DNA from: a virus
Reading direction: 5' to 3' (one strand)
IMG/VR virus record: IMGVR_UViG_3300027607_000111
Span: 1 to 36,317 of that record
Length of the DNA: 36,317 nucleotides
How positions within the stretch are numbered: position 1 is the stretch's first letter; every line of letters begins with the position of its first letter. The position numbers were made by a program, and so were the translations under genes. Below are positions 3,541 through 31,742 of this stretch, piece after piece. The notes under the pieces are model-generated. The model saw nothing but the letters and a program-made list of their open reading frames with translations. It was not told the DNA's origin and searched no databases.

Positions 3541-3657
3541 ATCGAATTCACCTTATGCGTGTCTATCGACAAACATCGCCGGAAAATACGGCATCAGTAT
3601 GACATGAACAAATGGCATTTCTTGCCCCATAAAAGCTAAGCTCTTCGGCCTGTGCCC

Positions 3658-3894
3658 TTACCGCCTAACGACTTTTAGCGACACAGATGTTCCCACGCCG
3701 TCTTTCAAATAGGCTTCCAGTGCGGCGGCGGATTTAATGATCTCGTCCATCTTGGTATTGGGCAGAGCCTGCACCACTTGGACCCAGGCCCAGCAGCGCC
3801 GCCCCTCCGCCGGCTCTTCTAAAGTGAGATAGTCCGGACACGCCCAATCCTCCGGATCAGAGTCGTCAGAGCCCGAGATCATGGAGACTCGCAT
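3658..3894 (-). CDS. small hypothetical protein after the amidase
   Basis: This short acidic protein of about 78 residues has no signal peptide or membrane segment. It has a Trp/Cys-containing middle (CWAWVQVVQALPNT) and a basic end. It overlaps the amidase 3' end by about 29 bases when started at 3894. A second ATG at 3882 would shorten it by four residues and the overlap to 17 bases. The tight overlap with the amidase supports translation as part of the lysis operon. I do not recognise it; it does not look like an Rz spanin because it lacks a lipobox or membrane helix. Confidence 0.5.
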   Translation of the reverse strand: MRVSMISGSDDSDPEDWACPDYLTLEEPAEGRRCWAWVQVVQALPNTKMDEIIKSAAALEAYLKDGVGTSVSLKVVRR

Positions 3895-4282
3895 AAGGGC
3901 AATGTGGCTTGCCCTTGGGATCTAGATCACAGTGCCGCACAACTTCCGCATCCGGATATCTCGATTTCAATTCACCAATAAGCGCCTTCAATGCGGTCTT
4001 CTGAGACAATGTGTAATTGGCCTCAGGTTGATCATTGTGCTCTCCAAGCCCGCCGATCAAACAAATGCCTTCAGAGTTTTGATTGTAGCCTTTCACATGG
4101 GCCCCGGCTGTTCCGCTATTGCGCCCTTTCTCGATCCGACCATTGCGCCGGATCACCCAATGATAGCCGATCCCCTTCCAGCCTCGAGCCTTGTGCCAAG
4201 CATCGATGGTTTCGACGCCGATATCGCTTTCCTTGCGGGTTGCCGAATGATGAATCACGATATACTCAGTTTTACGCCTCAT
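3866..4282 (-). CDS. N-acetylmuramoyl-L-alanine amidase endolysin
   Basis: This 138-residue protein is a zinc amidase of the Amidase_2/T7-lysozyme type, which cuts the bond between muramic acid and L-alanine of peptidoglycan at lysis. The zinc ligands are visible: a histidine in YIVIHHSATRKE near the N-terminus, and the His and Cys of RHCDLDPKGKPHCPY near the C-terminus. GIGYHWVIRRNGRI and GICLIGG are the usual core strands. The start at 4282 is chosen because the ATG overlaps the upstream stop as ATGA and leaves the HH motif near the N-terminus; the longer open frame upstream overlaps the TM gene. There is no signal peptide, so release would depend on a holin. Confidence 0.9.
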   Translation of the reverse strand: MRRKTEYIVIHHSATRKESDIGVETIDAWHKARGWKGIGYHWVIRRNGRIEKGRNSGTAGAHVKGYNQNSEGICLIGGLGEHNDQPEANYTLSQKTALKALIGELKSRYPDAEVVRHCDLDPKGKPHCPYASLHDLGL

Positions 4283-4584: not shown

Positions 4585-4923
4585 TCATAGAAAAGACTTC
4601 AAGTGTTTCCGATATTGCGCCCTGGTGAGATCCGGTCGTGACTGTCTGGCCAACTCAAACAATGCATTGAAAACAATGATCTTGAAGGGATCACCACCTT
4701 CTCCGGGAATAGCTCTTTCAAAGTTTTGGTCTTTGGTCGGCGTGTGAATCCCGGCCTGCAGAATCCATTCACCATTGATATAGTAGTACTCGTCTTCGTC
4801 CGACTGCGCGGATTTGGGAACCAAGCCTTCAATAAATGTATGGGTCTCTTCAAGCTTAGGCTTGTCCGACCGCAGCCCGTAATAAGCCACACGCCCATTG
4901 GGCCCTATAAAACATCCTCTCAT
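4585..4923 (-). CDS. 112-residue fibre-proximal protein, copy 1
   Basis: This 112-residue protein is a clear paralogue of the 6879-7217 product. Both begin MRG(C/S)F and share FIEGL, DEYY(Y/W)INGEW(I/V)LQ, and a C-terminal LT(R/K)AQYRKHLK. The shared block INGEW near residue 50 and the helical end suggest a small phage accessory or fibre-assembly type protein; copy 2 sits directly after the fibre gene, where tail-fibre chaperones are often encoded. The start has GAGAGGA about 10 bases upstream, a leader that resembles that of copy 2. It is separated from the fibre by two methyltransferase genes, so it looks like a duplicated boundary gene. Function is not established. Confidence 0.72.
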   Translation of the reverse strand: MRGCFIGPNGRVAYYGLRSDKPKLEETHTFIEGLVPKSAQSDEDEYYYINGEWILQAGIHTPTKDQNFERAIPGEGGDPFKIIVFNALFELARQSRPDLTRAQYRKHLKSFL

Positions 4924-5025
4924 GATTGGTCATCCTCTCAAATTCGAACTGCCGCTTCATTTGCAACAAACTACTTTCTGTGCCATCTGTTCGGAACCCG
5001 CCTTTATCGGAAGACAAATCTGACT

Positions 5026-5913
5026 ATGTCTGCTGCCCCAAAAAGCCCGCGACTATTGCTAGCAAAAAGAAGGATTTCGGATTTTTCCACAGTCCTGAGC
5101 GCCTATGCACAGGCAGGTATCAACCTTGGCAGCTGCATTGATGGAGGGGCAGGCTTCGGCCATACGGCACTCAAAATGTGCTCATATCTCAACGAGAATG
5201 AGAAGGTCCTCGCGTTTGAACCTTTCCCCGGCAATCACCGCTTTTTTGAAAAACCAGAGTTTTTGAAGGCCGCTAACGGTCAAGTCGAGCTCGTAAAAAA
5301 AGCAATTTCCAATGAAAAAGGTCAGTTCACACTTGCCGTTTCAAGCATAGTCGAAGAAGGCAGCCGCTGGGGCGCGACGGGAAAAAGTGGGTACTCATCG
5401 GCGGGTCGCCTAGACGATCGCGCACCGCAAGGACAACATGACTGCTTAGTAGAATGCGTAAGGCTTGAAGATGAGATTCCTCAGGATACGAAGATAGGCT
5501 TCATCAAACTTGATTTACAAGGCGGTGAGCTAAACGCCTTAAAGGGTCTGGGGTCTAGACTTGCTGACATTCCCCTTATGTGGATCGAATTCATGGGGCA
5601 AGCCGATCTCTACAAGTACCTAACTCAAAAAGGTTTCATCCTCTTTGACTCCAGCTATCTGTTTTTTGGCGAACCTAATGATGCAACGCGACACTATTTC
5701 CAGACAGAAAACTTAAAGGCCAATCTCTCCATAGATCAGAAATCCTGGACCGGATTCCGAAGAGACCATTGGGGCGACTATCTGGCCAACTTTCGGGCCA
5801 TGAAGACACTGTTTGGGCTCGTGCAAACCGACTTGCTTTGCATAAACAGGAATTTTCTCGAAGAATTCCATGCAGCGCGGCCTTTCATAAAAAAAGCCCC
5901 GAGAGGCGCCTGA
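5026..5913 (+). CDS. FkbM-family methyltransferase
   Basis: This 295-residue SAM-dependent methyltransferase is on the strand opposite to the phage genes. It has CIDGGAGFGHTAL (SAM-binding motif I), VLAFEPFPGN (acidic motif II) and IKLDLQGGELNALKGL, the arrangement typical of FkbM methyltransferases that O-methylate sugars and other small glycan units. The start at 5026 gives a compact protein with GGAAG upstream; the open frame extends 300 bases further back but that part is antisense to the 112-residue gene. The last residues (IKKAPRGA) are encoded by a diverged terminator belonging to a remnant of the 112-residue gene, so the 3' end looks chimeric. A role in altering host surface glycans, and so phage adsorption, is inference. 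Confidence 0.8.
   Translation: MSAAPKSPRLLLAKRRISDFSTVLSAYAQAGINLGSCIDGGAGFGHTALKMCSYLNENEKVLAFEPFPGNHRFFEKPEFLKAANGQVELVKKAISNEKGQFTLAVSSIVEEGSRWGATGKSGYSSAGRLDDRAPQGQHDCLVECVRLEDEIPQDTKIGFIKLDLQGGELNALKGLGSRLADIPLMWIEFMGQADLYKYLTQKGFILFDSSYLFFGEPNDATRHYFQTENLKANLSIDQKSWTGFRRDHWGDYLANFRAMKTLFGLVQTDLLCINRNFLEEFHAARPFIKKAPRGA
5888..5906 (-). terminator. diverged terminator of the gene remnant
   Basis: On the minus strand GCGCC-TCTC-GGGGC followed by seven or more T matches the copy 1 terminator at 4558-4580, with one stem mismatch. It overlaps the last codons of the FkbM gene on the other strand. Terminator activity is uncertain because the stem is weakened. Confidence 0.5.
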
Positions 5914-6878: not shown

Positions 6879-7217
6879 TCACAGTAGAGTCTTCAAGTGT
6901 TTGCGGTACTGAGCTTTTGTAAGTGTGGGGTTAGACTGTTTTGCCAACTCAAATATGGCTCTTAGTGCTATTCTTCCAAAGGGGCTTTGGTTTTCCTCTT
7001 TTAGAGCATCTGCCATGACGACTTGAGGGTCTGGTTTGTTGATATCCTTCTGCAAGACCCATTCACCGTTGATCCAATAGTATTCATCGTACATCTCGAA
7101 AGCTGTTGCGGGAGCCAAACCTTCAATGAACGTGTTTTCTTTCTCCAATAGCGCTCCATCCGCCCGCTCTCCATAAAAAAGCACTTTGCCCTCTGGGCTT
7201 ACAAAAGACCCCCTCAT
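6879..7217 (-). CDS. 112-residue fibre-proximal protein, copy 2
   Basis: This 112-residue protein is paralogous to the 4585-4923 product with the same length and the same conserved blocks (ENTFIEGL, DEYYWINGEWVLQ, KAQYRKHLK). Its ATG overlaps the fibre stop as ATGA and has AGAGGA upstream, so it is coupled to the fibre gene. This is the usual position of a fibre chaperone or a small fibre-associated protein, which is the best guess. Being coupled to the fibre, this copy is probably the ancestral one. A weak possible hairpin (AACCG...CGGTT) lies downstream but I would not call it a terminator. Confidence 0.75.
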   Translation of the reverse strand: MRGSFVSPEGKVLFYGERADGALLEKENTFIEGLAPATAFEMYDEYYWINGEWVLQKDINKPDPQVVMADALKEENQSPFGRIALRAIFELAKQSNPTLTKAQYRKHLKTLL

Positions 7218-8586: not shown

Positions 8587-9000
8587 CTATTCCTCCCTCT
8601 TCGTTGTTTTGTTTGCGCGTCGTCTGTCCAACAAAGAAAACAAAGCGGGCGCGACGATATTGCCAAGATTATGGGCAAGATTGTTGCCATAGATATGATT
8701 ACCGGCCGAGACATCACGCCCCCAAGACATTTGGGATTGCCAAGCTTTTCGTCTATTCTTCCCACGTTCTTGGGCTTCCTGCTCGCGTCGAAACAGCATC
8801 GCATCCGCAAGCTCATCCGGGTAACCCTCTTCGGACATGGGACCCGGCTCCAGTGGGAGATTTCCAACAACTTCGAAGCCGGTTTCGTGGACCCTTTGGG
8901 GAAGGGACTCCTTCATCCCTCCGCTGGGCACCATGTAAAACTTGTTAAGGGGCCGCACATGTCCTTGTTTGGCGCTCGAAGTCTCATACTGCCGTGGCAT
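8587..9000 (-). CDS. hypothetical phage tail-region protein
   Basis: This is a 137-residue polar protein. It has a long charged helix (about residues 60-90, ELADAMLFRREQEAQERGKN) and a C-terminal stretch with GNNLAHNLGNIVAPALFSLL followed by a basic tail. The ATG at 9000 has GGAGG seven bases upstream, which is decisive over upstream codons. It overlaps the end of the S74 protein gene and lies two bases from the fibre gene, so it belongs to the tail operon. I do not recognise a family. Confidence 0.65.
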   Translation of the reverse strand: MPRQYETSSAKQGHVRPLNKFYMVPSGGMKESLPQRVHETGFEVVGNLPLEPGPMSEEGYPDELADAMLFRREQEAQERGKNRRKAWQSQMSWGRDVSAGNHIYGNNLAHNLGNIVAPALFSLLDRRRANKTTKREE

Positions 9001-10144
9001 GACTGTTCCTCCCATCTTTTTGAGTGTCGTGCAGACGATTCACCTCTTCGGCTAGTTCTTTGATGGCTTGCAGACAGACGCCAACCGCATCGATCACTGA
9101 GATGGTACTACCATCGCCAAACCCAAAAGTGTTCTGCCAATCCTCCGCATAAGGACCGATATGACGCTCCGTCCCGAGTTTCATTTCCGCCCTGTAGCGC
9201 CAGGAGCGCACGGGCAACCGCTTGACCCCATCCAAAATCCGCTCCGGCGGTGCATCATCGTCCTTGAACGCGCGGCTCGACATCATAAATGCGCTGGCAA
9301 GTCCCATGATGCCTTGCATGGTGGCAGCCGAATTTTGCTGCCGGGCATTATAGGCATTCATATCCGCCTGGTATTTTTGATTGATGGCTCCCTGCAGATC
9401 CGGAGGCGCTACATTGGGCGCCGCGACGCCGGCATAATTGGGCATGGGCAAAGCAGGAGACCCGCTGAGCAACGCCGCCACTTCGTTCGCATCTTGCGTC
9501 CGCTCCAAGAGTCGCTCTTGAACGGCCCGATCGCGCGTATTGGAGTCCAAGCCGAACAAACGCGATTGCTCCGCCCCGCCCTGGCGGACCGCATCGGCGG
9601 CCACATTCTGCAACACCCGGTCTTGGCTGTCTTTAAACTGACGATAGGCGTTGTTATAGGCACCACTCCCCACCGGCAGACCGCGATTGGCCATGCTTTG
9701 TTGAAAGCGGTCGCTCTCCAAGTCCATATCCGGACGCAAGAGATTCCGCGACCTGTTATAAAGGTCTTGTTCAATGCGCCGGCGGTCAAGCCTATAGTTG
9801 TTTCGTTTTGGCGCCACAGGCAGTCCGCGCAAAGTAAAAGGGCTATTCGGCACGGTCTTTGTCCGCTGATTTGCCTTCCAAGCCATGCGGTTGGCGATTT
9901 CCGTTTGCCGGTTGTAGAGACGCTGTTGCGCCGGCGACAAGGTGATCACCTGCGCGCGCGGCACCTGCTGACCGTAGTTCTTATCGAACTCGCGTTTGAA
10001 GGTGGTGGATCCCCAAGGGGCATATTGATCAATCGCCGATAAATCCAAGGTCGCCACCGCTGAGTCTTTGTTGGCTTGGGCCTGAGCCGCCGCTGTTCTA
10101 TAGGGATCGGGCGCTGGAGGCGGACTGGAACTTTTCTTACCCAT
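8984..10144 (-). CDS. tail protein with S74 intramolecular chaperone domain
   Basis: This 386-residue virion protein has a helical, Gln/Arg-rich body (about residues 15-290) with repeated Arg-rich helices, and a C-terminal peptidase S74 / intramolecular chaperone domain beginning at SSRAFKDDD and continuing through WRYRAE, RHIGPYAEDWQ and a long final helix. In this family the Ser and Lys of the first motif carry out self-cleavage after trimer folding; both are present here. The ATG follows AAGGAG and directly abuts the GNAT stop (TGA ATG). It probably forms part of the tail or tail needle. The S74 assignment is firm, the precise structural role is not. Confidence 0.8.
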   Translation of the reverse strand: MGKKSSSPPPAPDPYRTAAAQAQANKDSAVATLDLSAIDQYAPWGSTTFKREFDKNYGQQVPRAQVITLSPAQQRLYNRQTEIANRMAWKANQRTKTVPNSPFTLRGLPVAPKRNNYRLDRRRIEQDLYNRSRNLLRPDMDLESDRFQQSMANRGLPVGSGAYNNAYRQFKDSQDRVLQNVAADAVRQGGAEQSRLFGLDSNTRDRAVQERLLERTQDANEVAALLSGSPALPMPNYAGVAAPNVAPPDLQGAINQKYQADMNAYNARQQNSAATMQGIMGLASAFMMSSRAFKDDDAPPERILDGVKRLPVRSWRYRAEMKLGTERHIGPYAEDWQNTFGFGDGSTISVIDAVGVCLQAIKELAEEVNRLHDTQKDGRNSHATAV

Positions 10145-10609
10145 TCATCTTTCTCCTTGGGTCTTGTAGGTCAGTTCTGCGTATTTCAACCATTTGCAGT
10201 CTTCCTTCAGCATTTCATAAATGATGGCATCTCGCCGCCCGTCCCAACCGCGGGTCAGCTTTCCCACATAGCGAAAGCCCAAACGTTCATCAAAGGCCCG
10301 GGCCCTTTTGTTGTTCTTGGCGGTGATGGTGGTGAGCCGCGAGCAGCCCAACTGATGGAATGGATAAGCGAGAATCAATCCGAGAATGCGCCGCGTCGCC
10401 CAACGGGCATCTTGAAAAGCACCATGCAAGCGAATGTCATTGCCGTATGTCATAACGCGATAATCCGAAAAGACGGCACCGCCCAAGAGCTTCGTCCCAT
10501 TCACCACACCGATCGCCGTGGCATCCGGGGCAAACTGCTCGTCATCACCGATCAAGGAAGAGACAAATGTTTTGACCAGAGCGTCTTGATGGAGAAGCAA
10601 CTGAATCAC
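10145..10609 (-). CDS. GNAT-family acetyltransferase
   Basis: This protein of about 154 residues has the GNAT layout: a central substrate strand (GGAVFSDY), a cofactor-binding region with RWATRRILGLILAYPFHQLGC and the C-terminal NNKRARAFDERLGFRYVGKLTRG, typical of the RimJ/RimL-like branch. GNAT genes are frequent neighbours of tail genes in alphaproteobacterial phages. I start it at the GTG at 10609, which has GAGGAG seven bases upstream; the track GTG at 10624 has no site. The same GTGATTCAGTTGCT start sequence recurs at the 3' end of the next phage gene upstream (11433-11446), indicating that the two were once adjacent and a PEP-CTERM cassette split them. Substrate unknown. Confidence 0.8.
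   Translation of the reverse strand: MIQLLLHQDALVKTFVSSLIGDDEQFAPDATAIGVVNGTKLLGGAVFSDYRVMTYGNDIRLHGAFQDARWATRRILGLILAYPFHQLGCSRLTTITAKNNKRARAFDERLGFRYVGKLTRGWDGRRDAIIYEMLKEDCKWLKYAELTYKTQGER
10596..10609 (+). repeat. 14-base direct repeat, left copy (cassette boundary)
   Basis: The sequence AGCAACTGAATCAC here is identical to 11433-11446. It covers the start codon of the GNAT gene (GTG on the minus strand). The two copies bound the PEP-CTERM gene. Confidence 0.85.
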
Positions 10610-10794
10610 GTTAAGTCTCCTCACTCAGTAATCTTGACAATCGTGACGTGCAGCAAGCCTTCAAGAGGATCACCAAAAAGGGAAAGATTGCTTTTTGAAC
10701 AGGCGCGTTACTCGTCGCCGTTGCATGGAAAATCGATTTCTAATAGCCTAGCTTAACAATTCACGTTGGTCTGAAATGTGATCCGGGGGCAGTT

Positions 10795-11427
10795 ATGAGG
10801 GTAAATGCAAGCGTTCCTAATTTTGCAGCGGCGATATGCTTCGTCGTCGGCAGTTTTTTTGCCACCGCCGCATCCTCAGCAGTGACATACACATATACCG
10901 GACCGAACTTTGACACCGTTTCCGGGATTTACACCACGTCCGACAATGTGACTGTCATCCTTGAGTTTGATGATCCGCTACCGGTCAATTTGTCCGGCGT
11001 CTTTTCAGGCGGCACCGAGAGCGTCATTGGTTTTGCCGGGTTCAGTTTTGTCGCCTCAGACGGACAGCAGTCCATAGACAGTTCAACGGCAACTTCCCAG
11101 GAGATGCTTTTATCAACGAATGGTGCCGGAGAAATCGATTTTTGGAGAATCCGAGTTGAAAACGCCAGTTCATTTGAAATTGGAACGTTTAATGTTTCGG
11201 ACTTCAATCTCTGTTTTGGCTTTGATTCGGGTCGACAATCCGACAACAACGAAGGTATGGTTGGTAGCATTTTTAGCGGCAATTGCGACTCGCGGGCGGG
11301 TGCATGGATCTTTGCTCAAAGCGATGCCGTACCCGAACCAAGTAATATGCTGTTGATCAGTATAGGAATGATCGGGATTTGGGCGGCACGAAGGCGTCTG
11401 CTCATTCCAGATAGCCGGCTTGCATAA
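10795..11427 (+). CDS. PEP-CTERM sorted exported protein
   Basis: This 210-residue protein has an N-terminal signal peptide (hydrophobic core about residues 9-28, cleavage near ASSA) and a C-terminal PEP-CTERM signal: AVPEPSNMLLISIG, a membrane stretch and a basic RRRLL cluster, with a 7-residue tail. Such proteins are exported and processed by exosortase, often alongside exopolysaccharide. The mature part is Ser/Thr/Gly-rich beta structure. It is on the strand opposite to the phage genes with its own leader (GGGGG upstream of the ATG), and is flanked by a 14-base direct repeat. It reads tail-to-tail into the stabilisation gene with 15 bases between. It resembles a lysogenic-conversion gene; binding function unknown. 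Confidence 0.85.
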   Translation: MRVNASVPNFAAAICFVVGSFFATAASSAVTYTYTGPNFDTVSGIYTTSDNVTVILEFDDPLPVNLSGVFSGGTESVIGFAGFSFVASDGQQSIDSSTATSQEMLLSTNGAGEIDFWRIRVENASSFEIGTFNVSDFNLCFGFDSGRQSDNNEGMVGSIFSGNCDSRAGAWIFAQSDAVPEPSNMLLISIGMIGIWAARRRLLIPDSRLA

Positions 11428-11432
11428 AACAT

Positions 11433-11446
11433 AGCAACTGAATCAC
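11433..11446 (+). repeat. 14-base direct repeat, right copy (cassette boundary)
   Basis: AGCAACTGAATCAC is identical to 10596-10609. On the minus strand this copy contains the stop of the stabilisation gene overlapped with a GTG (GTGA). Confidence 0.85.
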
Positions 11447-13050
11447 ATCAGGCCCCCGGGCAGGTAAATGTAAGTTGTCGACTTCCATTCCACTTGATCG
11501 GCGGGCGAGGTAGCGCGAATACGCAAGCTTGCCGCATAGCCCATACCGGTGACACTTTGCCAAGATTTGGTGATGTTCCGTCCGCCGCCCCATTTGGCGC
11601 CGGTGGCCGTTTCCTTATCACCCCATTTGCCGCCAGTGGCGCTTTCCTTGTCACCCCATTTGCCTGAATCGACGGCGTCGATCAGTGTCGCTTTACCGGA
11701 AATGAGCGGTCGATCAAAATCCACCCCCAATCCCAAATCCACAAAAGGCGTGACAACGCCTGACAAGGTCGGACGCACATTGGTAAAGAGTTTCACCCGT
11801 TCACGCGATCCCAAATAGGTCCAAGCCTGCTGGCCGTCGGCAGTGATCGCTGCACCGTCATCGCTTAATCCGCTATCGGCCAAATAGACCTTGCCGTCAT
11901 TGCCGCCGAAATAAATGTCTCCGCCGAATGTACTCCAGCACCGTGCCGGATAATCAAACCGTGTCCAGGCGCCGGTGTCGAAATTCATGACATATTGCTC
12001 GATCGTATTGCTGCTGATCGGCACGTTGATGATCAACATGTCCCCTTTGAAGTAAGGCTGAATCGCCCAGAACGCATTGGCGCCATATTGGCGCACTGCA
12101 GTGGAGGCCGCGCCGACGATTTTGTCGGACAGGGCGAGACCCTGATCTTTTGAACGGCCGAAAGGCAAGACACGGGTCAAAGGCAAAAAGCCGTCTTTGG
12201 TGATGACAATGACATCGGAACCGATTTTGACAGCCATGCGATCCACCGGCTCGCCGATTTGAAAAACACCAACCAACGACCAATCATTGGCATCGCCGGG
12301 ATTCGACCCCGCGTAAATCATCACATCGCCCGACGACATGACAAAGACCGCTAAATCATCCACACCATCGCCGCCGTCCTGGGTGATGGATGAAAAGGCT
12401 GCCAAGTGCCCGCCCTTAGACCCGATTTGGCTAAGGTCAAAGTAATTGGCTGTGCCGCCGTTGATTTCCCCCACCCCGCCGTAGAAAAACCCGGTAGCGC
12501 CGCGCGCCATAAAATAAAGGCGCGACTTAATGGTCATCACATCGCGAAAGTCGGAAAGCGTGACCCCGGCCGGCCCACCGGCCGCGCTCCATGACCCGGT
12601 CCGGTCGCTGAATGTGTTGCCGTCATACGTGAAAATACCGTTGGCCCCATTCACCAATGCACTAAGGCCGTTATATTCCGTGCCCCGCCAATCATTGCCG
12701 GTGATGCTGACTGCGGCGGCCACATCGCTTGGCGTAGTGGGATCGCTGGAGACGTCGAAGAGTTTGTTGTTCACGCCCGCAAGCAAAATGGAAGAGGTTG
12801 CGCCATGATGTTCGTGAAGCGCTTCAATAGTTTGGCCCGTCTCACCTGTATCCGCATAAGGCGCATAGCCTTTGCGCATGACTACATCATGGGTGCGCGG
12901 GAACCAGTTTTTGAGGTCGACGGCATCCATCGCCTGCATTTGATCCAGCGAGTCCCGGTCGTTCCAGCCGCCCACAGGCGGCGGCAGCGTTGCCACTTGG
13001 GCCCGGCCAAACCGTTCGGAAGCCGGGTTGATTAATCCACGTGCAAACAT
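11443..13050 (-). CDS. P22 gp10-like DNA stabilisation / propeller protein
   Basis: This 535-residue protein has the layout of phage head-closure proteins related to P22 gp10 and similar beta-propeller tail-hub proteins: an N-terminal PPPVGGWNDRDSLDQM segment, MDAVDLKNWFPR, then repeated beta blades (for example FFYGGVGEINGG, DGKVYLADSGLS). In this class the protein plugs the connector and retains packaged DNA. Residues about 458-488 carry three short tandem repeats of the form GKWGDKE(S/T)ATG, an unusual Trp/Gly insertion. It starts directly after the adaptor stop. Its stop once overlapped the GNAT start. The family is inferred from sequence pattern. Confidence 0.75.
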   Translation of the reverse strand: MFARGLINPASERFGRAQVATLPPPVGGWNDRDSLDQMQAMDAVDLKNWFPRTHDVVMRKGYAPYADTGETGQTIEALHEHHGATSSILLAGVNNKLFDVSSDPTTPSDVAAAVSITGNDWRGTEYNGLSALVNGANGIFTYDGNTFSDRTGSWSAAGGPAGVTLSDFRDVMTIKSRLYFMARGATGFFYGGVGEINGGTANYFDLSQIGSKGGHLAAFSSITQDGGDGVDDLAVFVMSSGDVMIYAGSNPGDANDWSLVGVFQIGEPVDRMAVKIGSDVIVITKDGFLPLTRVLPFGRSKDQGLALSDKIVGAASTAVRQYGANAFWAIQPYFKGDMLIINVPISSNTIEQYVMNFDTGAWTRFDYPARCWSTFGGDIYFGGNDGKVYLADSGLSDDGAAITADGQQAWTYLGSRERVKLFTNVRPTLSGVVTPFVDLGLGVDFDRPLISGKATLIDAVDSGKWGDKESATGGKWGDKETATGAKWGGGRNITKSWQSVTGMGYAASLRIRATSPADQVEWKSTTYIYLPGGLM

Positions 13051-13755
13051 CTACAAAGTCCAGGAACTGTCCGGCACATTGGGGTCGACCAGATCGTTTG
13101 GTCTTGCGCCCGCCAGGTTCAGCTTCGCCTTGGGGGTTTCCTGACCGAACCGTTTGGCGGCGTGCAAGTTAAAACGCTGCTGGTCCTCTGCATAAGGAAA
13201 GCCGTGCTGCTGCTTCCAGCGATAAATTAAACCGAGGGTCAGCAAGTGTTCATCCAAGACGCCCACATCCGTGTCCGCGGCAAAAGCCGGCTTACCCGTG
13301 CCGCCGGCACTTTGACACCAGTGTTTTGAAATATATTCAAAGGCGATGTCTTCGCCCGCGGCCGGCGTCGGCGTCAAAAACAATTTGCCTTCGCGCAAAT
13401 AGATCGTGTCGAACACCGTTTGGTTGATCACCGCACGATCCCATTGCCAAATCTGCGCCGTCACCGGTCCGAAGATCTTGCGCCGGGTGGTCCGATTGAA
13501 AAAAGTCTCCGGCAAAAAACGATCAAGATCCGCCCAGGCCGTGGCGACCGTCGCCTGCTCCGCCGCCGCCAATGTTGTCAAACTGCCCTCTTTGCGCAAC
13601 ACCGCCCAGGGTGTGTCGCGCATGAGTTCCAGCCCCAGCACGTTCAGCGTGCTCAACATTTCTTGAGTCGCCTGATTGCCATTGTTGATCACCGTCGCCG
13701 GTTGCGGCAGGGAACATAAATTACTGGCGGTTTGGACAATCGATAAAAGACTCAA
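13051..13755 (-). CDS. head-tail adaptor (SU10/T7 gp11-like)
   Basis: This 234-residue protein resembles the adaptor (tail tubular A) proteins of short-tailed phages. It has an N-terminal helical part (SIVQTASNLCSLPQPATVIN), LELMRDTPWAVLRKEGSL, FLPETFFNRTTRRKIFGPVTAQ and a C-terminal helix DEHLLTLGLIYRWKQQHG that is characteristic. The adaptor forms a 12-mer ring below the portal. It overlaps the upstream gene by four bases (ATGA) and its stop TAG is immediately followed by the ATG of the stabilisation protein, which places all three in one connector operon. Confidence 0.78.
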   Translation of the reverse strand: MSLLSIVQTASNLCSLPQPATVINNGNQATQEMLSTLNVLGLELMRDTPWAVLRKEGSLTTLAAAEQATVATAWADLDRFLPETFFNRTTRRKIFGPVTAQIWQWDRAVINQTVFDTIYLREGKLFLTPTPAAGEDIAFEYISKHWCQSAGGTGKPAFAADTDVGVLDEHLLTLGLIYRWKQQHGFPYAEDQQRFNLHAAKRFGQETPKAKLNLAGARPNDLVDPNVPDSSWTL

Positions 13756-19939: not shown

Positions 19940-20127
19940 TCCCAAAGAAAAAGGCGGCCCGAGGGCCGCCTGGTTTTGAATGTTGATTTTTGAGTGTCAT
20001 CCCGGACAATGAGCGAAGCGAATGCAATCCGGGATCCATCGCCTGGCCTCGGCAAGGCTAAGCCACAAAGCATCTATTGCGCATCAATTGATGCGCGATG
20101 GATTCCGCGATCAAGTCGCCGAATGAC
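19940..20127 (+). repeat. boundary repeat A (leader + terminator + GTCATCCCGGA element)
   Basis: This ~188-base segment aligns with 21324-21509: TCCCAAAGAAAAAGGCGGCC hairpin, TTTTGAATGTTGA, then an element of ~133 bases from 19995 that begins GTCATCCCGGACAATGAGCG and ends GGATTCCGCGATCAAGTCG and GAATGAC. The last 17 bases encode the C-terminus and stop codon of the 20111-20668 gene. The element type resembles dispersed chromosomal repeats of alphaproteobacteria. Confidence 0.85.
19944..19970 (-). terminator. terminator/attenuator at the scaffold leader (copy A)
   Basis: On the minus strand GGCGGCC-CTC-GGGCCGCC followed by TTTTTCTTT forms a strong hairpin ending about 10 bases before the scaffold start. 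It may terminate upstream transcripts or cap the capsid mRNA. A diverged copy lies at 21328-21353. Confidence 0.8.
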
Positions 20128-20668
20128 AGCCCGGTTGGGACGATGACATCATGGCATCGCTCTTGGCTTTCAAGGCCTCTAACTCTTCGATGTGCTGTTG
20201 AATAAAACCAAGCGTCTGTTTGCGTTCTCTATCCCAATCCGCATTGACAAAAGACCGGTGACAAAATTGATAAAACTCCAAGCCGGCTTTGACAAAAGCG
20301 TCCACAAAACTGGCGCGGTCGAAAGTTGCGGATTCAGCATTAGGGGGGCCGATAAATATCTTGATCCTATCCCCCTCCTCCAATGTCACTTCCAATGGAA
20401 CGTCGCTCTGATCTGCCAACAAACCTTTACCAACTTTACCGTCAAGGGCGTCATTGACTGCTTCGCAGAGGGAGGCCCATAGCACTTCGATCACATCGTA
20501 AAGCGATCGATCGCGGAACACAGGATTACTGTCGACGGAAATATCGATCCGCCCGTCTTCCAATTGCATTCGATAGGGGAGACGTTCAAAGGTCGTCACG
20601 TCTTTACGCTCAAGCCAGACTCCCTCGACATCCACAAAGGTTTTGATCTCGATAGTGTCATTGGTCAT
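20111..20668 (-). CDS. candidate immunity partner of toxin-like protein
   Basis: This 185-residue cytosolic acidic protein follows the toxin-like gene by 12 bases. It has an N-terminal beta region (IEIKTFVDVEGVWLERKD), a middle helix (DRSLYDVIEVLWASLCEAVND), and a C-terminal helical part ending in a Ser/Gln tail. GAGGGA is upstream of the ATG. The last five residues (CHSAT) and the stop lie inside repeat A, so the 3' end was shaped by the repeat. Role as an immunity protein is inferred from gene order and acidity; the family is unknown to me. Confidence 0.62.
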   Translation of the reverse strand: MTNDTIEIKTFVDVEGVWLERKDVTTFERLPYRMQLEDGRIDISVDSNPVFRDRSLYDVIEVLWASLCEAVNDALDGKVGKGLLADQSDVPLEVTLEEGDRIKIFIGPPNAESATFDRASFVDAFVKAGLEFYQFCHRSFVNADWDRERKQTLGFIQQHIEELEALKAKSDAMMSSSQPGCHSAT

Positions 20669-20680
20669 GGAATAGTTCCC

Positions 20681-21319
20681 TCAATAAACCGGATGAAAAG
20701 TCGTCACAACGCCCTTTTCACCAATGACAAGATTATAGTTTCCGCTTCCAAACCGAACGGGGTAAGACCGCTGTACAGCCGTACCATTCCTCTGAATTTG
20801 ACCCCAATTTTGTCGAATGCCCATCACCAGGAGCCTCTGAATCGAGTCTGGTGAAAGGCTCTCACCGAATTGGCTGTTTCTGACTTTTACGTTCCCATTG
20901 TAGAAAAAATAGGGATGATGTCGTGACAAAATATGCTCCATACTCTTTCGAGTCATTCTGACGTTGTTGCCCCCTATTCGCACGTGCCAGGGCTTCCAAT
21001 GTTTCAGAGCTCTCGCGATGCGGTATCTTGAAATGCGCGGCGTGACCGGAACATTTCGTCCTTTAAGTTGATCATCCAATTGTGTCAAAAACCCGCCCGG
21101 CTTGGACTTATCGTATTCAAAGGTGGCAATCTCCTCGATCGGTGTGCTGTCCGGCGCCGTTCCGTAGAGCAATTCGCCGACATCCGTCGTTTTAGCGAGT
21201 CTGCCCTGGTTCCAAAACCGTGTCTGCAGACGCCTTGACGCAGACTCCTCCAATGCATCCGTCAAAAGTGCACGTCGTTGGGCTTTCAGATCTCCATTCG
21301 GTATGATCATCGGCATCAT
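20681..21319 (-). CDS. putative toxin with EndoU/BECR-like C-terminal domain
   Basis: This 212-residue protein has a basic N-terminal part with ALLTDALEESASRRLQTR, then a region of about 60 residues, and a C-terminal domain of about 95 residues: SMEHILSRHHPYFFYNG, an RNSQFGESL block, helix RLLVMGIRQNWGQI, and a final GNYNLVIGEKGVVTTFHPVY. Conserved His, SxF and a terminal T..HP are typical of BECR/EndoU-type RNase toxins at the C-terminus of polymorphic toxins. Here the toxin-like domain is not attached to a large delivery protein. I start at 21319 (GGGA upstream, matching the scaffold leader). The preceding terminator would limit read-through. Toxin activity is a hypothesis. Confidence 0.6.
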   Translation of the reverse strand: MMPMIIPNGDLKAQRRALLTDALEESASRRLQTRFWNQGRLAKTTDVGELLYGTAPDSTPIEEIATFEYDKSKPGGFLTQLDDQLKGRNVPVTPRISRYRIARALKHWKPWHVRIGGNNVRMTRKSMEHILSRHHPYFFYNGNVKVRNSQFGESLSPDSIQRLLVMGIRQNWGQIQRNGTAVQRSYPVRFGSGNYNLVIGEKGVVTTFHPVY

Positions 21320-21323
21320 GATA

Positions 21324-21509
21324 TCCCAAAGAAAAAGGCGGCCAATGGCCGCCCGCTTTTGAATGTTGAAATCAACTGTCATCCCGGACTATGAGCGAAG
21401 CGAATGTGATCCGGGATCCATCAACCGAGCGACAGCAGACCAAGTCACAAATCATCTATTGCACGCCCATTGGCGTGCGATGGATTCCGCGATCAAGTCG
21501 CGGAATGAC
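21324..21509 (+). repeat. boundary repeat B (leader + terminator + GTCATCCCGGA element)
   Basis: This is the second copy of the boundary unit in the same orientation as 19940-20127. The element part runs from 21378 to 21509, beginning GTCATCCCGGACTATGAGCG and ending CGCGGAATGAC. A and B directly bound the two-gene toxin-like cassette. Confidence 0.85.
21328..21353 (-). terminator. terminator upstream of toxin-like gene (copy B)
   Basis: On the minus strand GGCGGCC-ATT-GGCCGCC and TTTTTCTTT match the scaffold-leader hairpin at 19944-19970. It ends nine bases before the toxin-like ATG. Confidence 0.78.
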
Positions 21510-21542
21510 GGCGTCGAAGAACTCACTTGGACACGAACTCAC

Positions 21543-21983
21543 TCACCCGTCCACACTCAGCCGCTCGCAGACCCGGCGCATGGTGGTGCCGACAGGTTCC
21601 AGGCAGCGGCGGTTTTGCTCCACATGTTTCAGACTTTCATTGCCCACAATGGTTTTGCCGTGGGCGTGAACGTGCCGGGTATAGCCTTTCTTGGAGCTGT
21701 GTTTCGAGCCGTCGATGGGCGAAACGACTGGTTGATCAAAGGCGTCGGACAGGAATTCCATGCGGCTGCGCGGCGCATGATCCTTTTCCCATTCTTCCAA
21801 GGGGATGAGTCCTCCGTCTGCTTCACTCCAACGGTAGCGGTTCGACGGCGAGGTCAACTGGGTACGCGGCGATTTCTCGCGCGGCTTTGCTTTGACCGCC
21901 TTTTTGTCTTTAGGCCGCCCGGTCCGCTCCGCCCGGTTAAAGCGCAACGGATTCTCTAGATGCGGGTCGTAGTGTTTGGTCAT
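21543..21983 (-). CDS. hypothetical protein between portal and scaffold
   Basis: This 146-residue basic, polar protein has Lys/Arg-rich N-terminal half (RPKDKKAVKAKPREK) and a C-terminal SSKKGYTRHVHAHGK followed by a helix with conserved-looking Cys. I start at 21983 (MTKHYDPHLE) because the longer frame upstream reads through repeat C and encodes only repeat sequence. The place between portal and scaffold suggests a minor head or assembly protein. I do not recognise a family. Confidence 0.55.
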   Translation of the reverse strand: MTKHYDPHLENPLRFNRAERTGRPKDKKAVKAKPREKSPRTQLTSPSNRYRWSEADGGLIPLEEWEKDHAPRSRMEFLSDAFDQPVVSPIDGSKHSSKKGYTRHVHAHGKTIVGNESLKHVEQNRRCLEPVGTTMRRVCERLSVDG

Positions 21984-22005
21984 GAGCTGTGATTGAACTC
22001 CTACC

Positions 22006-22160
22006 GTCATTCCGGCCCCGGATCGTCGTCCGGGATAAACTCCAGCCGGAATCCATCGCACGTCAAACGACGTGCATTAGATAACTTCTTGAGATGGCAA
22101 ACCTAACGGATTGCCGATGGATCCCGGATCACGGTCGCAAAGCTCCCTGTCCGGGACGAC
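22006..22160 (-). repeat. GTCATTCCGG-type element C, inverted
   Basis: This ~155-base element begins GTCATTCCGG and ends GTCCGGGACGAC; its reverse complement aligns along its length with element D (23230-23383). It includes GCACGTCAAACGACGTGC, an internal palindrome. C and D are inverted around the exported gene at 22212-23126. Confidence 0.85.
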
Positions 22161-22211
22161 AGCCTCTGTTTTTTGGATATGCCTAAGGGCCCGAAGGATC
22201 TGTTGGATTAC

Positions 22212-23126
22212 TCAATCCCGCTCTTCGTCTTCATCACGGAAACGATCGTTACCGTCCTCTACCTTAATTCTTCCGGAACGATTGAACGTGACATAAAGCT
22301 CACTGGTAAATTCCGCCATTGAATACTCTTCTCGTGAGAGGGAATAATCTATGTCGAGAGCGTAGCCTTCTTCGCGCTCATCCTCCGGGTCATCACACCA
22401 AGCGGTAAGAATCATTTCTTCCAAATTCGGGTAAGAGAATTGCCAAAGCTCGTCTATGTCGGCGGTGAAATGCCCAGACACTGTGGTAAAAGAGAGCCCG
22501 GTGAACCGCCGACGGTCGGGAGTCAACCCCACATCCAGTCTGATATCACGCTCACAGCCTCTCGGCGTTATACCGATGGACGCCGCCTGCCAGCGTGCCA
22601 GTTTTTGATATCGCAGGCCTGGATATCGTTCAAAAAACATATCCGCTTTTTCATCGGCTGAAATCTCGAACTCACCGGTGGCATCGAAAAGGACGGATAA
22701 TACGGCGCTCTCCCGCTCATACAGCATTTCTTCATCGCGCAGCGAATACTCGACTTGAATGAGGTAACCCTTTTCAAGACCAGGCATTGCGCCTGAACAC
22801 CACGCCAATATCAAAGCATATTCCAACTCCGGATAGAGATAGTCTTGCAACTGCTCCACCGGAATAGCAATGCGGATATCCCCCGTGGTCAGTGCAAATG
22901 TGGTAAAACGTCCCCGGTCATCGGTGAGTTCCATCTCAAGCTTTGCGCCAGGCTCACAATGACGCGGTGCCAAATTCATGGAGATGGATTGCCACCTCGC
23001 CGGGCTGGGATGAAAGAGATTGAGAACAATTTCTTTATCGCTCGAATCTGCTTCATCAGCATGCAGAGTGATCAATGGAAGACACAAAAGTGCCCCTATA
23101 AGTGCGACACAAAACTTCCACCCCAT
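22212..23126 (-). CDS. exported protein with two tandem ~130-residue domains
   Basis: This 304-residue protein begins with a signal peptide (MGWKFCVALIGALLCLPLI, cleavage near LHA-DE). The mature part is an internal duplication: residues about 40-155 and 170-285 share ARWQ(S/A), two cysteines (HCEPGA/GCERD and WC), DRGRFTTFALTTG versus DRRRFTGLSFTTV, YPELE/YPNLE, and GY.(I/L)..(V/I)(E/D)YSLR/S. Each repeat probably forms one disulphide. It ends in an acidic Asp/Glu/Arg tail. GGAGGG precedes the ATG at 23126. The gene lies between inverted repeat elements C and D between the portal and scaffold genes, so it is a moron-like insertion. The fold is unknown to me. Confidence 0.68.
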   Translation of the reverse strand: MGWKFCVALIGALLCLPLITLHADEADSSDKEIVLNLFHPSPARWQSISMNLAPRHCEPGAKLEMELTDDRGRFTTFALTTGDIRIAIPVEQLQDYLYPELEYALILAWCSGAMPGLEKGYLIQVEYSLRDEEMLYERESAVLSVLFDATGEFEISADEKADMFFERYPGLRYQKLARWQAASIGITPRGCERDIRLDVGLTPDRRRFTGLSFTTVSGHFTADIDELWQFSYPNLEEMILTAWCDDPEDEREEGYALDIDYSLSREEYSMAEFTSELYVTFNRSGRIKVEDGNDRFRDEDEERD

Positions 23127-23229
23127 CGCAATACCCTCCACTTCCGATTGCATATGGATAGAATGCCATTATGGCGAAACCATGATATTCAGGAAGCATC
23201 TGGCACTGTTTGACGACTTAACCTACGCT

Positions 23230-23383
23230 GTCATCCCGGACAATGAGCGGAGCGAATGTGATCCGGGATCCATCGGCCGAGCATCCGCGAGGCCAAAACA
23301 TAGAGCATCTATTGCACGTCGACCGGCGTGCGATGGATTCCGGCTGGAGTTTATCCCGGACGACGATCCGCGGCCGGAATGAC
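23230..23383 (+). repeat. GTCATCCCGGA-type element D
   Basis: This ~154-base element begins GTCATCCCGGACAATGAGCG and ends GGCCGGAATGAC. It ends five bases before the portal stop codon. It shares ATCTATTGCACG, CGTGCGATGGATTCC and flanks with A and B but has the longer right end that C also has. Confidence 0.85.
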
Positions 23384-27874: not shown

Positions 27875-28123
27875 CATTGTCACCCTCAGGCTAGACTCGA
27901 GGGTCCACGGTAAAGGTTGCAGAATTGCTGTATCGGCAGAGATTGAACTACAAGCGCCAGCCACGGATCCTCGAAACAAATGCGTGGATGACACGGGTCT
28001 TCAAATGGAATGGCATACAAAAATGCCCCGGCCCTGCTCAGGCCGAGGCGCAATTCCGGTCATGTTTTTGAGCCTCTCACGAAAAGCCTTCCGTGTCGAT
28101 TGTGAAAATTCAAATCTTCACAG
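27875..28123 (+). repeat. boundary repeat E (~249 bp) flanking a two-gene cassette
   Basis: This segment aligns along its length with 29832-30079: CATTGTCA, CACGGTAAAGGTT, GATGACAC, CAAATGGAATGG, GCCGAGGCGCAATTCC, TCAGCCTC-like, CGTGTCGATTGTGAAAAT and TTCACAG, about three quarters identical. It contains a terminator at 28017-28051. The stop codon of the 28127 gene begins three bases after it. Confidence 0.85.
28017..28051 (-). terminator. terminator inside repeat E
   Basis: On the minus strand GCCTCGGCC-TGAGCAG-GGCCGGGGC followed by ATTTTTGTA forms a long hairpin with a T run. It follows the membrane-protein gene. The loop and stem are nearly the same as those of the 31685-31722 terminator. 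Confidence 0.8.
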
Positions 28124-28126: not shown

Positions 28127-28726
28127 CTAGCGCCCAGGACGAGACGATAAGAACATGTTTCCAAATCGCTCTTGTCTGTAAAACATAACACCAACCGCAA
28201 CCGCTCCGGCATAATGAGCTAGCATTCGAGGGGTCATAGCATCGCTCCACGTGAATAAATCTGGCTTGTTCATCTCGTCCGTTACAAACCAAACCTCCAA
28301 GCCAAGCCAAGACGAAGCTGCCGCCAACGCCATGAGAAACGAAGACATTCCTAAATGCTGACTGATCTGGGATCGAAAGGGATAAACGATGATACTCAAA
28401 GGAAAAGCTAAGAGTGGGGCCAGGAGTACCATCGCAACAGCAAGCTCAATCAGCCCCTCAGAAAACTCTCTCTCAATGACGGCAAGTAGGAGATAGGTAA
28501 TAACAACGGAAACCATGTACATAGCTCCCATTGAAAAAGAGAATTCGAAAAACTTATTCCATTTTCGGCGGTATTCTGCACTGTCATACATTTTGCTGTA
28601 TGCCCTCGAAACGCTGCTAAGAACCGATTGAGCTACACAATTCTGGCCAAAGTATGATTGATCTTTGGCTGCATTTGGCAATAAAACCTTTTTTGGGAAG
28701 CTGATTAACACCTTAAAACACGACAA
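28127..28726 (-). CDS. polytopic membrane protein, second gene of a cassette
   Basis: This membrane protein has about four hydrophobic helices (around MVSVVITYLLLAV, VAMVLLAPLLAFPLSIIV, SSFLMALAAASSWLGLEVWF and LAHYAGAVAVGVMFY) after a basic, soluble N-terminal part. The longest frame begins with TTG at 28726 (199 residues); an ATG at 28591 (MYDSAEYRRKWN, 155 residues) is also possible and keeps all helices. I see no strong ribosome site for either. It directly follows the 352-residue cargo gene and ends at repeat E. Immunity or partner protein is a context guess. Codon use looks AT-richer than in the head genes. Confidence 0.55.
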   Translation of the reverse strand: MSCFKVLISFPKKVLLPNAAKDQSYFGQNCVAQSVLSSVSRAYSKMYDSAEYRRKWNKFFEFSFSMGAMYMVSVVITYLLLAVIEREFSEGLIELAVAMVLLAPLLAFPLSIIVYPFRSQISQHLGMSSFLMALAAASSWLGLEVWFVTDEMNKPDLFTWSDAMTPRMLAHYAGAVAVGVMFYRQERFGNMFLSSRPGR

Positions 28727-28758
28727 ATTAAGGCGATGGGAAGTTTCAAACTACGAAA

Positions 28759-29817
28759 CTACTGCATATCAAGCGGAACTTTTTTTGAACCATCTTTGGT
28801 TTCAATCTCAACCCGAATAGCTCTTGTCTCCGGATCGAAATTAACGTCAAATCCTGCACCTGAAGCATGAACGATCGCTGCCAGAGTCTCTTGCGGTAGC
28901 TGCCGCAGGCTAGTTCCATATTCCTTCAGTTGATCAGCAAGTCTGTTGAATGTTTCGATCGCCGCACTCTGGTGGCTCATGGTCATGTTAGCGATCGATC
29001 CGATACCTTTATACTCTAGTTGCCGTTGCCGGGCACGACGAGCAGCTTTAGTCGCCGCAAAAGTAGCTCCACGTGCACCTGCCCCAAGGACACCACCCAG
29101 CGCAAACCCTGAGGCACCGGACCCAATCATTCTTCCGGTCGCATAGGCTGGGTTCTTCTTGGCTTGATGAAGAACGAATTCGACCGCCTTACTGGGGTTT
29201 TCATTTGCCCATTCAAAACCGCGGTTTACCGCCCAATCGATGACTTTGGCCTGCGGATCTTCTTTCCACAACTTGATCTTATGGTTGATAAATGTAGGTA
29301 ACGACATCGCTCCACTTTTCGCACCCTCGCCAAATTTCAGAATATCAGGAACCAAGCTTGGCGAAGCCTTCCATTCAGGGTGATTGTCCGGATGTCCGAA
29401 TTCTTCAAATTCAAAGTCAGTGCGCCCACCCTCTCGATCAGCTGACGGACCGGCACCCTGCGCCATCTGAGAACGATCGTATGCCTCCTCTAAGGATTGC
29501 CGCAGCGACCTTACATTGCTGACGACAGGCTCTTCCACACTCTCTGAGTTGACCGGAGGCATTGGAGTCACAGACGCGGAAACTTCAGAATCCGTGTTCT
29601 CGGATTTCATATCCAAAGCTGGCTCAATTTTAAGTCCTTGAGAGGTTTCCTCCAGCCTCGCCGGTCCCGGCATAGGGAAAGCACTTGGCCGATGCATCTG
29701 TGTCCGCAATGCCAGACCGTGATTACGCCGCTCAAGCGCCATACGCTCAAGCTCTTCTGCCAGCAAATGAGGATATGACGGCGTCTGAGCGCCGTATGTT
29801 GGATGTTGTAGGATCAT
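28759..29817 (-). CDS. 352-residue cargo protein, first gene of a cassette
   Basis: This protein starts with a short disordered end and HLLAEELERMALERRNHG, then FPMPGP, which resembles the N-terminus of the 2992-3540 product (ELLAQELQRRG... FPLPPTP). A long low-complexity, Ser/Glu-rich part (about 60-140) follows, then a helical region, a Gly/Ala-rich hydrophobic stretch near residue 240 (GRMIGSGASGFALGGVLGAG), a basic KAARRARQRQ and a C-terminal domain of about 70 residues ending in IRVEIETKDGSKKVPLDM. The layout resembles a polymorphic toxin or effector with a glycine-zipper-like membrane segment. It sits between repeats F and E. The start uses GAGGCG inside or next to the end of repeat F. 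Confidence 0.55.
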   Translation of the reverse strand: MILQHPTYGAQTPSYPHLLAEELERMALERRNHGLALRTQMHRPSAFPMPGPARLEETSQGLKIEPALDMKSENTDSEVSASVTPMPPVNSESVEEPVVSNVRSLRQSLEEAYDRSQMAQGAGPSADREGGRTDFEFEEFGHPDNHPEWKASPSLVPDILKFGEGAKSGAMSLPTFINHKIKLWKEDPQAKVIDWAVNRGFEWANENPSKAVEFVLHQAKKNPAYATGRMIGSGASGFALGGVLGAGARGATFAATKAARRARQRQLEYKGIGSIANMTMSHQSAAIETFNRLADQLKEYGTSLRQLPQETLAAIVHASGAGFDVNFDPETRAIRVEIETKDGSKKVPLDMQ

Positions 29818-29831
29818 AAACGTTCACGCCT

Positions 29832-30079
29832 CATTGTCATCCTCGGGCTTGGCCCGAGGGGTCACGGTAAAGGTTAGCGGATTTCCCTCTCACCAGAACT
29901 GAACTGCAAATGCTCGTTATGGATCCTCGCAACACGTGCGAGGATGACACTGGTCGTCAAATGGAATGGAACACAAAAGCGCCCCGAATCTATTGGAGCC
30001 GAGGCGCAATTCCGATCATGATTTTCAGCCTCGCACAAAAATTTTTTCGTGTCGATTGTGAAAATTTGAATTTTCACAG
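29832..30079 (+). repeat. boundary repeat F (~248 bp) flanking a two-gene cassette
   Basis: This is the partner of repeat E in the same orientation, with the same order of blocks. Its terminator (near 29976-30007) is diverged. Bases 30080-30213 beyond it are the leader of the lipoprotein operon, without an obvious promoter to my eye. Confidence 0.85.
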
Positions 30080-30213
30080 GATTTGGGTAAGGCTCTCTAG
30101 CACCAAAGAAAACTGCGGGAACTTCTCTTCGCCATTTCATCTGTCTACAGATGTTACTCTCATAGCGAGAATATCATCCTATTTTCGCCATATTCTCATG
30201 TGAGGGTCTTCGT

Positions 30214-30867
30214 ATGAGGGCGTTGGTGGTCATATGTGTTTTGTGGCTTTCGAGTTGTGCAAGTTCCGCTTTAGGGCCGGCCATGACAGGCAAGCTCACC
30301 CCCCAGCTCGATTTTCATGACAACAAATTTCCCTTGCTGACTGTCGACTTTAACGGTGAGAGCTACAGTCTTGAGGGCTATCACATTAAGCCGGGCTTGC
30401 ATCAAGCAAGTCCGTTTGTAACTCACTTCAACGCGCTCCTGTTTTGGGATGATGTCAACTACACTTGCCGCGAAAAGGGCCAACAGCATTTGGTCTGCTT
30501 CGATGCCAAAGGCAGGAATTTCGGCAAATATGCCGAGTTAATTGTCAACGCAGGCCCAATGGTGGGCCTTGAAACGCGGCGCAAACCGCTCCTGACCAAT
30601 CAGATTGGAACACTTTCGCCTCAACTTCATCGTGTCAACGGCATCTTTCCATTCCTAACTGTCGAATTTCAGGGCGAGGAATACACTCTTGACGGCCTCT
30701 ATGCATCACCGGGGATAGATGACCTGGAAGCCTACCGAACCTATCAGCAAGCCGCCGCATTCATGGCGGATCGAAGTTTTTCATGCGACACAAATCATTC
30801 CTGGCATCTGACCTGTTTTAATCAAGAGGGCGAGAACATCACTAAGTATCTCAAAGCGAAATCATGA
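30214..30867 (+). CDS. lipoprotein with two copies of a ~90-residue domain
   Basis: This 217-residue protein has a lipoprotein signal with lipobox LSSC. The mature part holds two copies of a domain: residues about 20-108 and 115-215, each with LTVDFNGESYSLEGYH / LTVEFQGEEYTLDGLY, a two-Cys end (YTC...HLVCF; FSC...HLTCF) and a final G.N...KY. The strand order (gene product folding as a small beta barrel) resembles a reduced staphylococcal-nuclease-like domain, but this is a guess. GAGGG lies upstream of the ATG. It is followed by a second lipoprotein with one copy, overlapping by four bases. A surface role such as superinfection exclusion is inference. Confidence 0.72.
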   Translation: MRALVVICVLWLSSCASSALGPAMTGKLTPQLDFHDNKFPLLTVDFNGESYSLEGYHIKPGLHQASPFVTHFNALLFWDDVNYTCREKGQQHLVCFDAKGRNFGKYAELIVNAGPMVGLETRRKPLLTNQIGTLSPQLHRVNGIFPFLTVEFQGEEYTLDGLYASPGIDDLEAYRTYQQAAAFMADRSFSCDTNHSWHLTCFNQEGENITKYLKAKS

Positions 30868-31325
30868 AGAAGCTCGCCACAATGGGTGTTTTGCTTGCGG
30901 GTTGTGCCACCACACCGGAAAAAGTCGTACAGCCGGAATATTTGTTCGGACCGCCCTTTGGTCCAGCCATGACCGGCGAGATCACTCCATACTTCTACTT
31001 TCTTGATCGGAAGTTTCCTGTTTTCACCGTCGAATTTAACGGCCAGGAATATTCACTCGAGGGATACCATGAACCTCCAGGCCATGATCGAATGAAGTAC
31101 TTTTTTGCTTACCAGAATGCGCGTGATTTTCTACTAGGTAAGACGTTCACCTGTCACGAAACTTTTCCGTGGCATTTGGTATGCTTCAATAACAAGGGAG
31201 AAAACATGGCCCGATATCTAGAACCCAAACCTTTATCATCAGAATCAGTGGCACTGGGAGATCTTGAAAGGGAAGATCGCGACTACTTTGACACGCTTTT
31301 CTTCCTGGAACTTCCACAAATGTAA
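30864..31325 (+). CDS. lipoprotein with one copy of the same domain
   Basis: This 153-residue protein has lipobox LLAGC and one copy (residues about 33-125) of the domain repeated in the preceding gene: GPAMTGEITPYFYFLDRKFP, FTVEFNGQEYSLEGYH, FTC...HLVCFNNKGENMARYL. It ends with a charged tail of about 28 residues. Its ATG overlaps the preceding stop as ATGA, so the two are a translationally coupled pair likely created by tandem duplication. It reads tail-to-tail toward the 31337-31645 gene. The domain origin is uncertain. Confidence 0.72.
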   Translation: MKKLATMGVLLAGCATTPEKVVQPEYLFGPPFGPAMTGEITPYFYFLDRKFPVFTVEFNGQEYSLEGYHEPPGHDRMKYFFAYQNARDFLLGKTFTCHETFPWHLVCFNNKGENMARYLEPKPLSSESVALGDLEREDRDYFDTLFFLELPQM

Positions 31326-31336
31326 ATCCCGGGGAA

Positions 31337-31645: not shown

Positions 31646-31684
31646 GGGACAATCCTTTCGAGGGATGAGTGGGACGGAATTGTC

Positions 31685-31722
31685 AAAAAACAAAACGCCT
31701 CGGCCCTGCTCAGGCCGAGGCG
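31685..31722 (-). terminator. terminator after the LamG-like gene
   Basis: On the minus strand CGCCTCGGCC and GGCCGAGGCG pair around a seven-base loop (TGAGCAG) followed by TTTTGTTTTTT. It closes the fibre/adhesin operon. The stem and loop are nearly identical to those inside repeat E at 28017-28051. Confidence 0.88.
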
Positions 31723-31742
31723 CTATCGTTTAAAGGGCACGC

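Follow-up and report, generated by a model that had tools for sequence, protein, structure and literature searches.

The window analyzed here, 36,317 bp in length, corresponds to an entire IMG/VR virus record and derives from an uncultured phage. Its minus strand carries the morphogenesis block of a short-tailed phage, with the genes for terminase, portal, major head protein, adaptor, a P22 gp10-like neck/stabilization protein (STAB), a head-assembly acyltransferase (GNAT), and a Peptidase_S74 protein. The STAB-GNAT-S74 gene order is conserved in relatives, which places these genes in the P22 gp10-like STAB plus GNAT module. The annotators of phage phiGT1 named the STAB homologue tubular tail B or P22 gp10-like and the GNAT homologue head assembly protein. 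In the window, STAB and GNAT are separated by a segment that contains a single gene, antisense to its neighbors, for a PEP-CTERM protein (Table 1).

Table 1. Features at the STAB/GNAT junction (window coordinates)
Feature	Position	Strand	Description
Peptidase_S74 virion protein	8984..10144	-	Next gene in the conserved STAB-GNAT-S74 block
GNAT, head-assembly acyltransferase gene (phrog_4470)	10145..10609	-	Intact
Repeat copy 1	10596..10609	-	GTGATTCAGTTGCT on the minus strand; contains the GNAT start GTG (10609-10607), where homologous GNAT N termini begin
Inserted segment	10610..11432	+	823 bp between the repeats; GC 0.482; not at this junction in relatives
GAGGAG, Shine-Dalgarno-like	10617..10622	-	Within the insert, 7 nt before the GNAT GTG; seen in the sequence
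PEP-CTERM protein gene	10795..11427	+	Opposite in orientation to the late operon; 210-aa product with a signal-peptide-like N terminus and the C terminus VPEPSNMLLISIGMIGIWAARRR
Repeat copy 2	11433..11446	-	Contains the stop codon of STAB, TGA (11445-11443), plus ten duplicated bases that no longer code
STAB, P22 gp10-like neck/stabilization protein (phrog_5107)	11443..13050	-	Intact; C terminus PGGLM, like relatives

The segment is flanked by a 14-bp direct repeat, AGCAACTGAATCAC, which is found exactly twice in the window, with both copies exact; no third site with fewer than 3 mismatches exists in the whole window. On the minus strand, copy 1 reads GTG ATT CAG TTG CT, i.e., bases 1 to 14 of GNAT, whereas copy 2 reads GTGA (a G and the STAB stop codon TGA) followed by TTCAGTTGCT, ten noncoding bases identical to GNAT bases 5 to 14. 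The first-pass annotation had described both copies in this way, with the GTG start of GNAT in one and the stop codon of the stabilization gene in the other, and each of these readings holds. In 36 kb, a 14-mer repeat at unconstrained positions is nothing unusual: the window contains three chance-like pairs, and the number of chance pairs spaced 300 to 3,000 bp apart is expected to be about 0.55. The significance of the match lies in its register, because relatives fix where the STAB stop and the GNAT start must coincide; the probability of ten dead bases matching in a fixed register is about 4^-10. Likewise, the longest match shared by the 120-nt stretches around the two insert edges is 14, and matches of at least 14 are found in about 0.1% of random 120-nt pairs (4 of about 3,950). 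The ten duplicated bases, which are under no constraint, are still identical, and the insertion is therefore probably not ancient, ten sites providing a loose bound. A longer duplication of 25 bp with subsequent decay was considered, since 6 of the 11 bases that follow are identical and the other 5 differ by transitions. It was rejected in view of the unchanged state of the ten free duplicated bases and the purine-rich ribosome-site sequence on both sides.

Relatives that lack the PEP-CTERM gene were expected to show a tight stop/start overlap at this junction, and they do. Both genes were identified in 107 distinct related loci; in 99 of these, STAB overlaps or abuts GNAT, often through a 4-base NTGA. 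As originally classed, the 107 junctions comprised 42 with a 4-base overlap, 56 with another overlap or abutment, and 9 gaps; one of the latter (L026, NYA-2014a) was moved to the overlaps, as its annotation shows a 4-base overlap. The overlap is GTGA in RHph_N2, Mx8, and EPV2, as well as in MW202489 (GTG start at -3), ATGA in BUCT555, NYA-2014a, and the related phage L003, and TTGA in phiGT1. The 107 do not include 27 further loci in which the script found no GNAT. In three of these (L030, L032, and L036) a tail fiber directly follows STAB. Another one, L110, from an alphaproteobacterial assembly, encodes the closest STAB found (48% identity); its junction, read individually, runs directly STAB-TAATG-GNAT. 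The remaining eight of the 107 include one with a short spacer only (L038) and seven (L019, L033, L073, L109, L126, L129, and L179) with co-oriented tail-fiber-like, low-complexity, or unknown sequence between the two genes. The STAB/GNAT junction is thus a recurrent insertion point, as shown by co-oriented sequence in several related phages. None of these eight gapped junctions contains an antisense gene of note or a repeat above chance length; in the seven occupied ones, the same comparison of edges gives 6 to 8 shared bases.

Accordingly, the relatives do not uniformly carry a gap at this position, and the 14-mer is not intrinsic to unoccupied junctions, nor is it a recurrent junction motif within the window; either outcome had been listed as evidence against an insertion. 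Exact nucleotide scans of viral contigs revealed neither an empty nor an occupied copy of this same junction, and no same-species empty-site phage was found. The relatives available for comparison, none above 48% identity, suggest that the ancestral state was empty. Deletion of the insert with one repeat copy had been predicted to restore a GTGA overlap of the kind found elsewhere in this operon. The restored GTGA has counterparts in several relatives, but not in the operon itself, where the other 4-base overlaps are TTGA (13752-13755) and ATGA (7214-7217).

Both genes that border the insert are complete, in agreement with the earlier statement that neither was damaged. The C-terminal PGGLM of STAB aligns with PGGIL, PGGVL, and AGGLV of relatives, whereas the GNAT N terminus VIQLLLHQDALV aligns with VKTLVFHEPDAV of MW202489 from the overlap codon onward. 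This alignment puts the true GNAT start at 10609, not at 10624, where the longest open reading frame begins. Because the duplication spans the overlap, neither the STAB stop nor the GNAT start was lost. The GAGGAG motif ahead of GNAT belongs to the insert, as had also been recognized. Near its C terminus, STAB contains a 33-bp tandem repeat (window positions 11588-11653), so that an 11-residue KWGDKE-type peptide is repeated in the protein.

The PEP-CTERM protein resembles the cargo proteins of the PEP-CTERM/exosortase (EpsH) system (Haft et al. 2006, PMC1569441) in combining an N-terminal signal-like segment with a C-terminal PEP motif, a hydrophobic transmembrane stretch, and a basic tail. 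The C-terminal region scores 24.5 bits against PF07589 (cutoff, 20.7) and 20.2 bits against TIGR02595 (cutoff, 16). Unlike those proteins, it is encoded by a phage, and its middle domain bears only a remote resemblance to that of a cellular homologue (G173/L216; 25% over 184 aa, including the NF..V...Y.T.DNV stretch and the PEP-CTERM tail). No close homologues were detected in viral contigs, phage records, or genome contigs, and a plasmid search returned one partial match at chance level (E 0.8). The third-position GC content of the gene is 0.50, compared to 0.57 to 0.68 for the phage genes. The overall GC content of the insert is mildly low, with about 13% of windows equally low. The distant cellular homologue and the low GC3 support a foreign origin of the gene, in line with the earlier description of it as being of unrelated type. 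A structure prediction from the single sequence was discarded (pLDDT 32). Among 43 related virus records searched, the only other carrier of a PEP-CTERM-like gene is L003, which encodes a secreted PEPxxWA-CTERM-like protein, LPEPSTWAMLIGGFFGAGAMVRSRR, with a score below the PF07589 cutoff (L211:1477-2052, minus strand; about 3571-4146 of IMGVR_UViG_3300045454_000009). This gene is also antisense to the late genes but is located at another site, and the STAB/GNAT junction of L003 is empty. No paper on phage-encoded PEP-CTERM proteins was found in the open-access literature searched, which is only part of all literature.

In several respects the insert resembles the morons described in HK97 and HK022 (Juhala et al. 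2000, as presented in PMC3029335 and PMC7067206). It adds one gene at a point where relatives have its two neighbors side by side, differs from its flanks in base composition, distinctly in GC3 and modestly in overall GC, and is antisense to the lytic genes, with a product that is likely directed at the host; the antisense position among lytic genes has been called characteristic of morons (PMC7067206). It departs from them in carrying a 14-bp target duplication that spans a stop/start overlap and, as far as the scans described below could tell, in having no recognizable promoter or terminator. There is a precedent for phage insertions flanked by direct repeats: genes 43 to 46 of mycobacteriophage LRRHood form a 1.35-kb segment of four genes, including a repressor, between 29-bp repeats, of which relatives have one copy (PMC3029335). 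Here, by contrast, the repeats are 14 bp long and enclose, at an overlap, one gene for a predicted exported surface protein. The mycobacteriophage mobile elements (MPMEs; PMC3029335) are likewise very small phage-genome insertions without a classical transposase. However, MPMEs possess inverted repeats, recur in identical form, and bring 6 additional bp at one end, whereas this insert has neither inverted repeats nor a second copy.

It is very probable that this phage lineage acquired the 823-bp segment, with its one cellular PEP-CTERM gene, by insertion into the 4-base overlap of STAB and GNAT with duplication of the target, most likely as a moron. Fourteen bases of the target would have been duplicated either by a staggered double cut and fill-in or by a template switch out and back. 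Since the duplication covers the overlap, the STAB stop would have remained in one copy and the GNAT start in the other. The overlap in relatives suggests that GNAT was formerly translated by coupling to STAB; if so, GNAT would now depend not on coupling but on a ribosome site of its own, GAGGAG, furnished by the edge of the insert.

The main rival, which is nevertheless rather unlikely, is recombination with a donor phage that had the PEP-CTERM gene beside its GNAT start, the 14 bp representing the homology at the crossover. For LRRHood, where the relatives retain a single repeat copy, this is the explanation favored by the authors (PMC3029335), and the PEP-CTERM-like gene of L003 shows that a second phage of the group has such cargo. 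However, the searches turned up no phage whose GNAT gene has a PEP-CTERM gene next to it, and both 14-bp copies match the junction of this phage, so that the donor would need to have had the same bases.

The repeat could also be a target-site duplication left by a nonautonomous element that carries the PEP-CTERM gene and was moved by a transposase acting in trans. A direct 14-bp duplication is indeed present, in register with the empty site and with nothing else lost. Still, the insert contains no transposase and no terminal inverted repeats (its ends align no better than shuffled sequences), and there is no second copy of it in the record. Between the stop codon of the PEP-CTERM gene and the right edge there are just 5 nt, into which an end sequence could hardly fit, and 14 bp exceeds most known target duplications. 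Transposition therefore appears an unlikely source of the insert.

Identical short direct repeats around a single-gene insert also resemble an attL/attR layout, as expected if a gene cassette had been integrated by site-specific recombination with the 14 bp as the att core. This is quite improbable: no integrase is present in the insert and none was recognized among the window proteins scanned, no inverted arms are reported around the 14 bp, and the 14-mer does not recur as a junction motif. That the gene occupies a normally variable gap, with a 14-base match devoid of historical meaning, is very unlikely and the weakest reading, since, even though seven relatives have other sequence here and 14-mer pairs do arise by chance in the window, the match stands in the exact register set by relatives, whose own intervening genes are co-oriented and whose segments share far shorter edges. 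Fourteen bases is a short repeat, and an assembly artifact might underlie it, although a duplicated target at both edges is not what a chimeric contig would normally produce.

The insertion is thus well supported, and the segment fits best among the phage morons, as one whose borders can be read unusually well. The first-pass annotation had it placed precisely between two virion genes. It is located exactly at the stop/start overlap, but there is no sign of targeting, and survivorship is the preferred explanation. Insertions within the neighboring virion genes would be lost, as they destroy essential functions, whereas one at the overlap destroys no gene; selection after ordinary illegitimate insertion would suffice.

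A scan of positions 10500 to 11500 for sigma-70 promoters and hairpins yielded chance-level sites only, with no consensus promoter for the PEP-CTERM gene and no terminator-like site on the late-transcribed strand; host promoter types may differ. Sigma-54 promoters are in use at some PEP-CTERM genes, but no such pattern is present in the insert or in the same interval. An Rfam search gave no matches. Among the window proteins scanned, neither an integrase nor a repressor was recognized, so that the capacity of the phage for lysogeny is an assumption; several relatives are part of long contigs in bacterial assemblies, some of them from named isolates, which is consistent with prophages. One of these assemblies is that of Nitrosovibrio Nv6, in which 33 PEP-CTERM matches were counted. 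The PEP-CTERM gene would be silent or opposed during lytic growth and expressed in the lysogen, where its product might be exported and handled by the host exosortase, altering the cell surface (adhesion, flocculation, or phage entry). A role in lysogenic conversion, acting on the host surface, would be its most likely function.

Several other regions of the window deserve mention. An FkbM-type methyltransferase gene (PF05050; positions 4726-5913, plus strand), antisense within the late operon, is a candidate surface-modifying moron; no direct repeat of at least 9 bp flanks it. Between genes of unknown function at 19942-23383, intergenic modules recur that consist of a terminator-like hairpin, a REP-like TGTCATCCCGGAC...ATCCGGGATCCATC element, and a further palindrome. 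These REP-like elements are of a chromosomal type, here inside a phage record; of 289 genomes from the class to which the L110 host belongs, 2 contain matches to similar repeats, which is not conclusive for host assignment. Repeats of about 250 bp, 74 to 79% identical, are found at 27875-28123 and 29832-30079 (plus 31692-31726); they flank the genes at 28127-28726 and 28759-29817 and could be module borders. For most of the large proteins encoded at 28127-35835, one of them 840 aa long, neither Pfam nor PHROGs gave a match; weak similarity links one protein to lectins and another to a PHROG of unknown function.

The entry of morons usually cannot be read because their borders have decayed, whereas here both borders are legible, so that this locus offers a well-preserved footprint of the pickup of an extra gene by a phage, a process that is broadly known in kind. 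The borders suggest a simple rule, namely that no harm is done when an insertion duplicates a stop/start overlap. The nature of the cargo suggests that phages exert control over the exosortase/PEP-CTERM surface system, on which no paper was found in the open-access literature searched. As a tentative generalization, more doubtful than likely, stop/start overlaps might serve as safe harbors for gene capture, since any insertion with a target duplication longer than the overlap leaves both genes whole, and PEP-CTERM surface proteins might be a recurrent cargo acquired in this way by phages of exosortase-bearing hosts, remodeling the surface of the lysogen.
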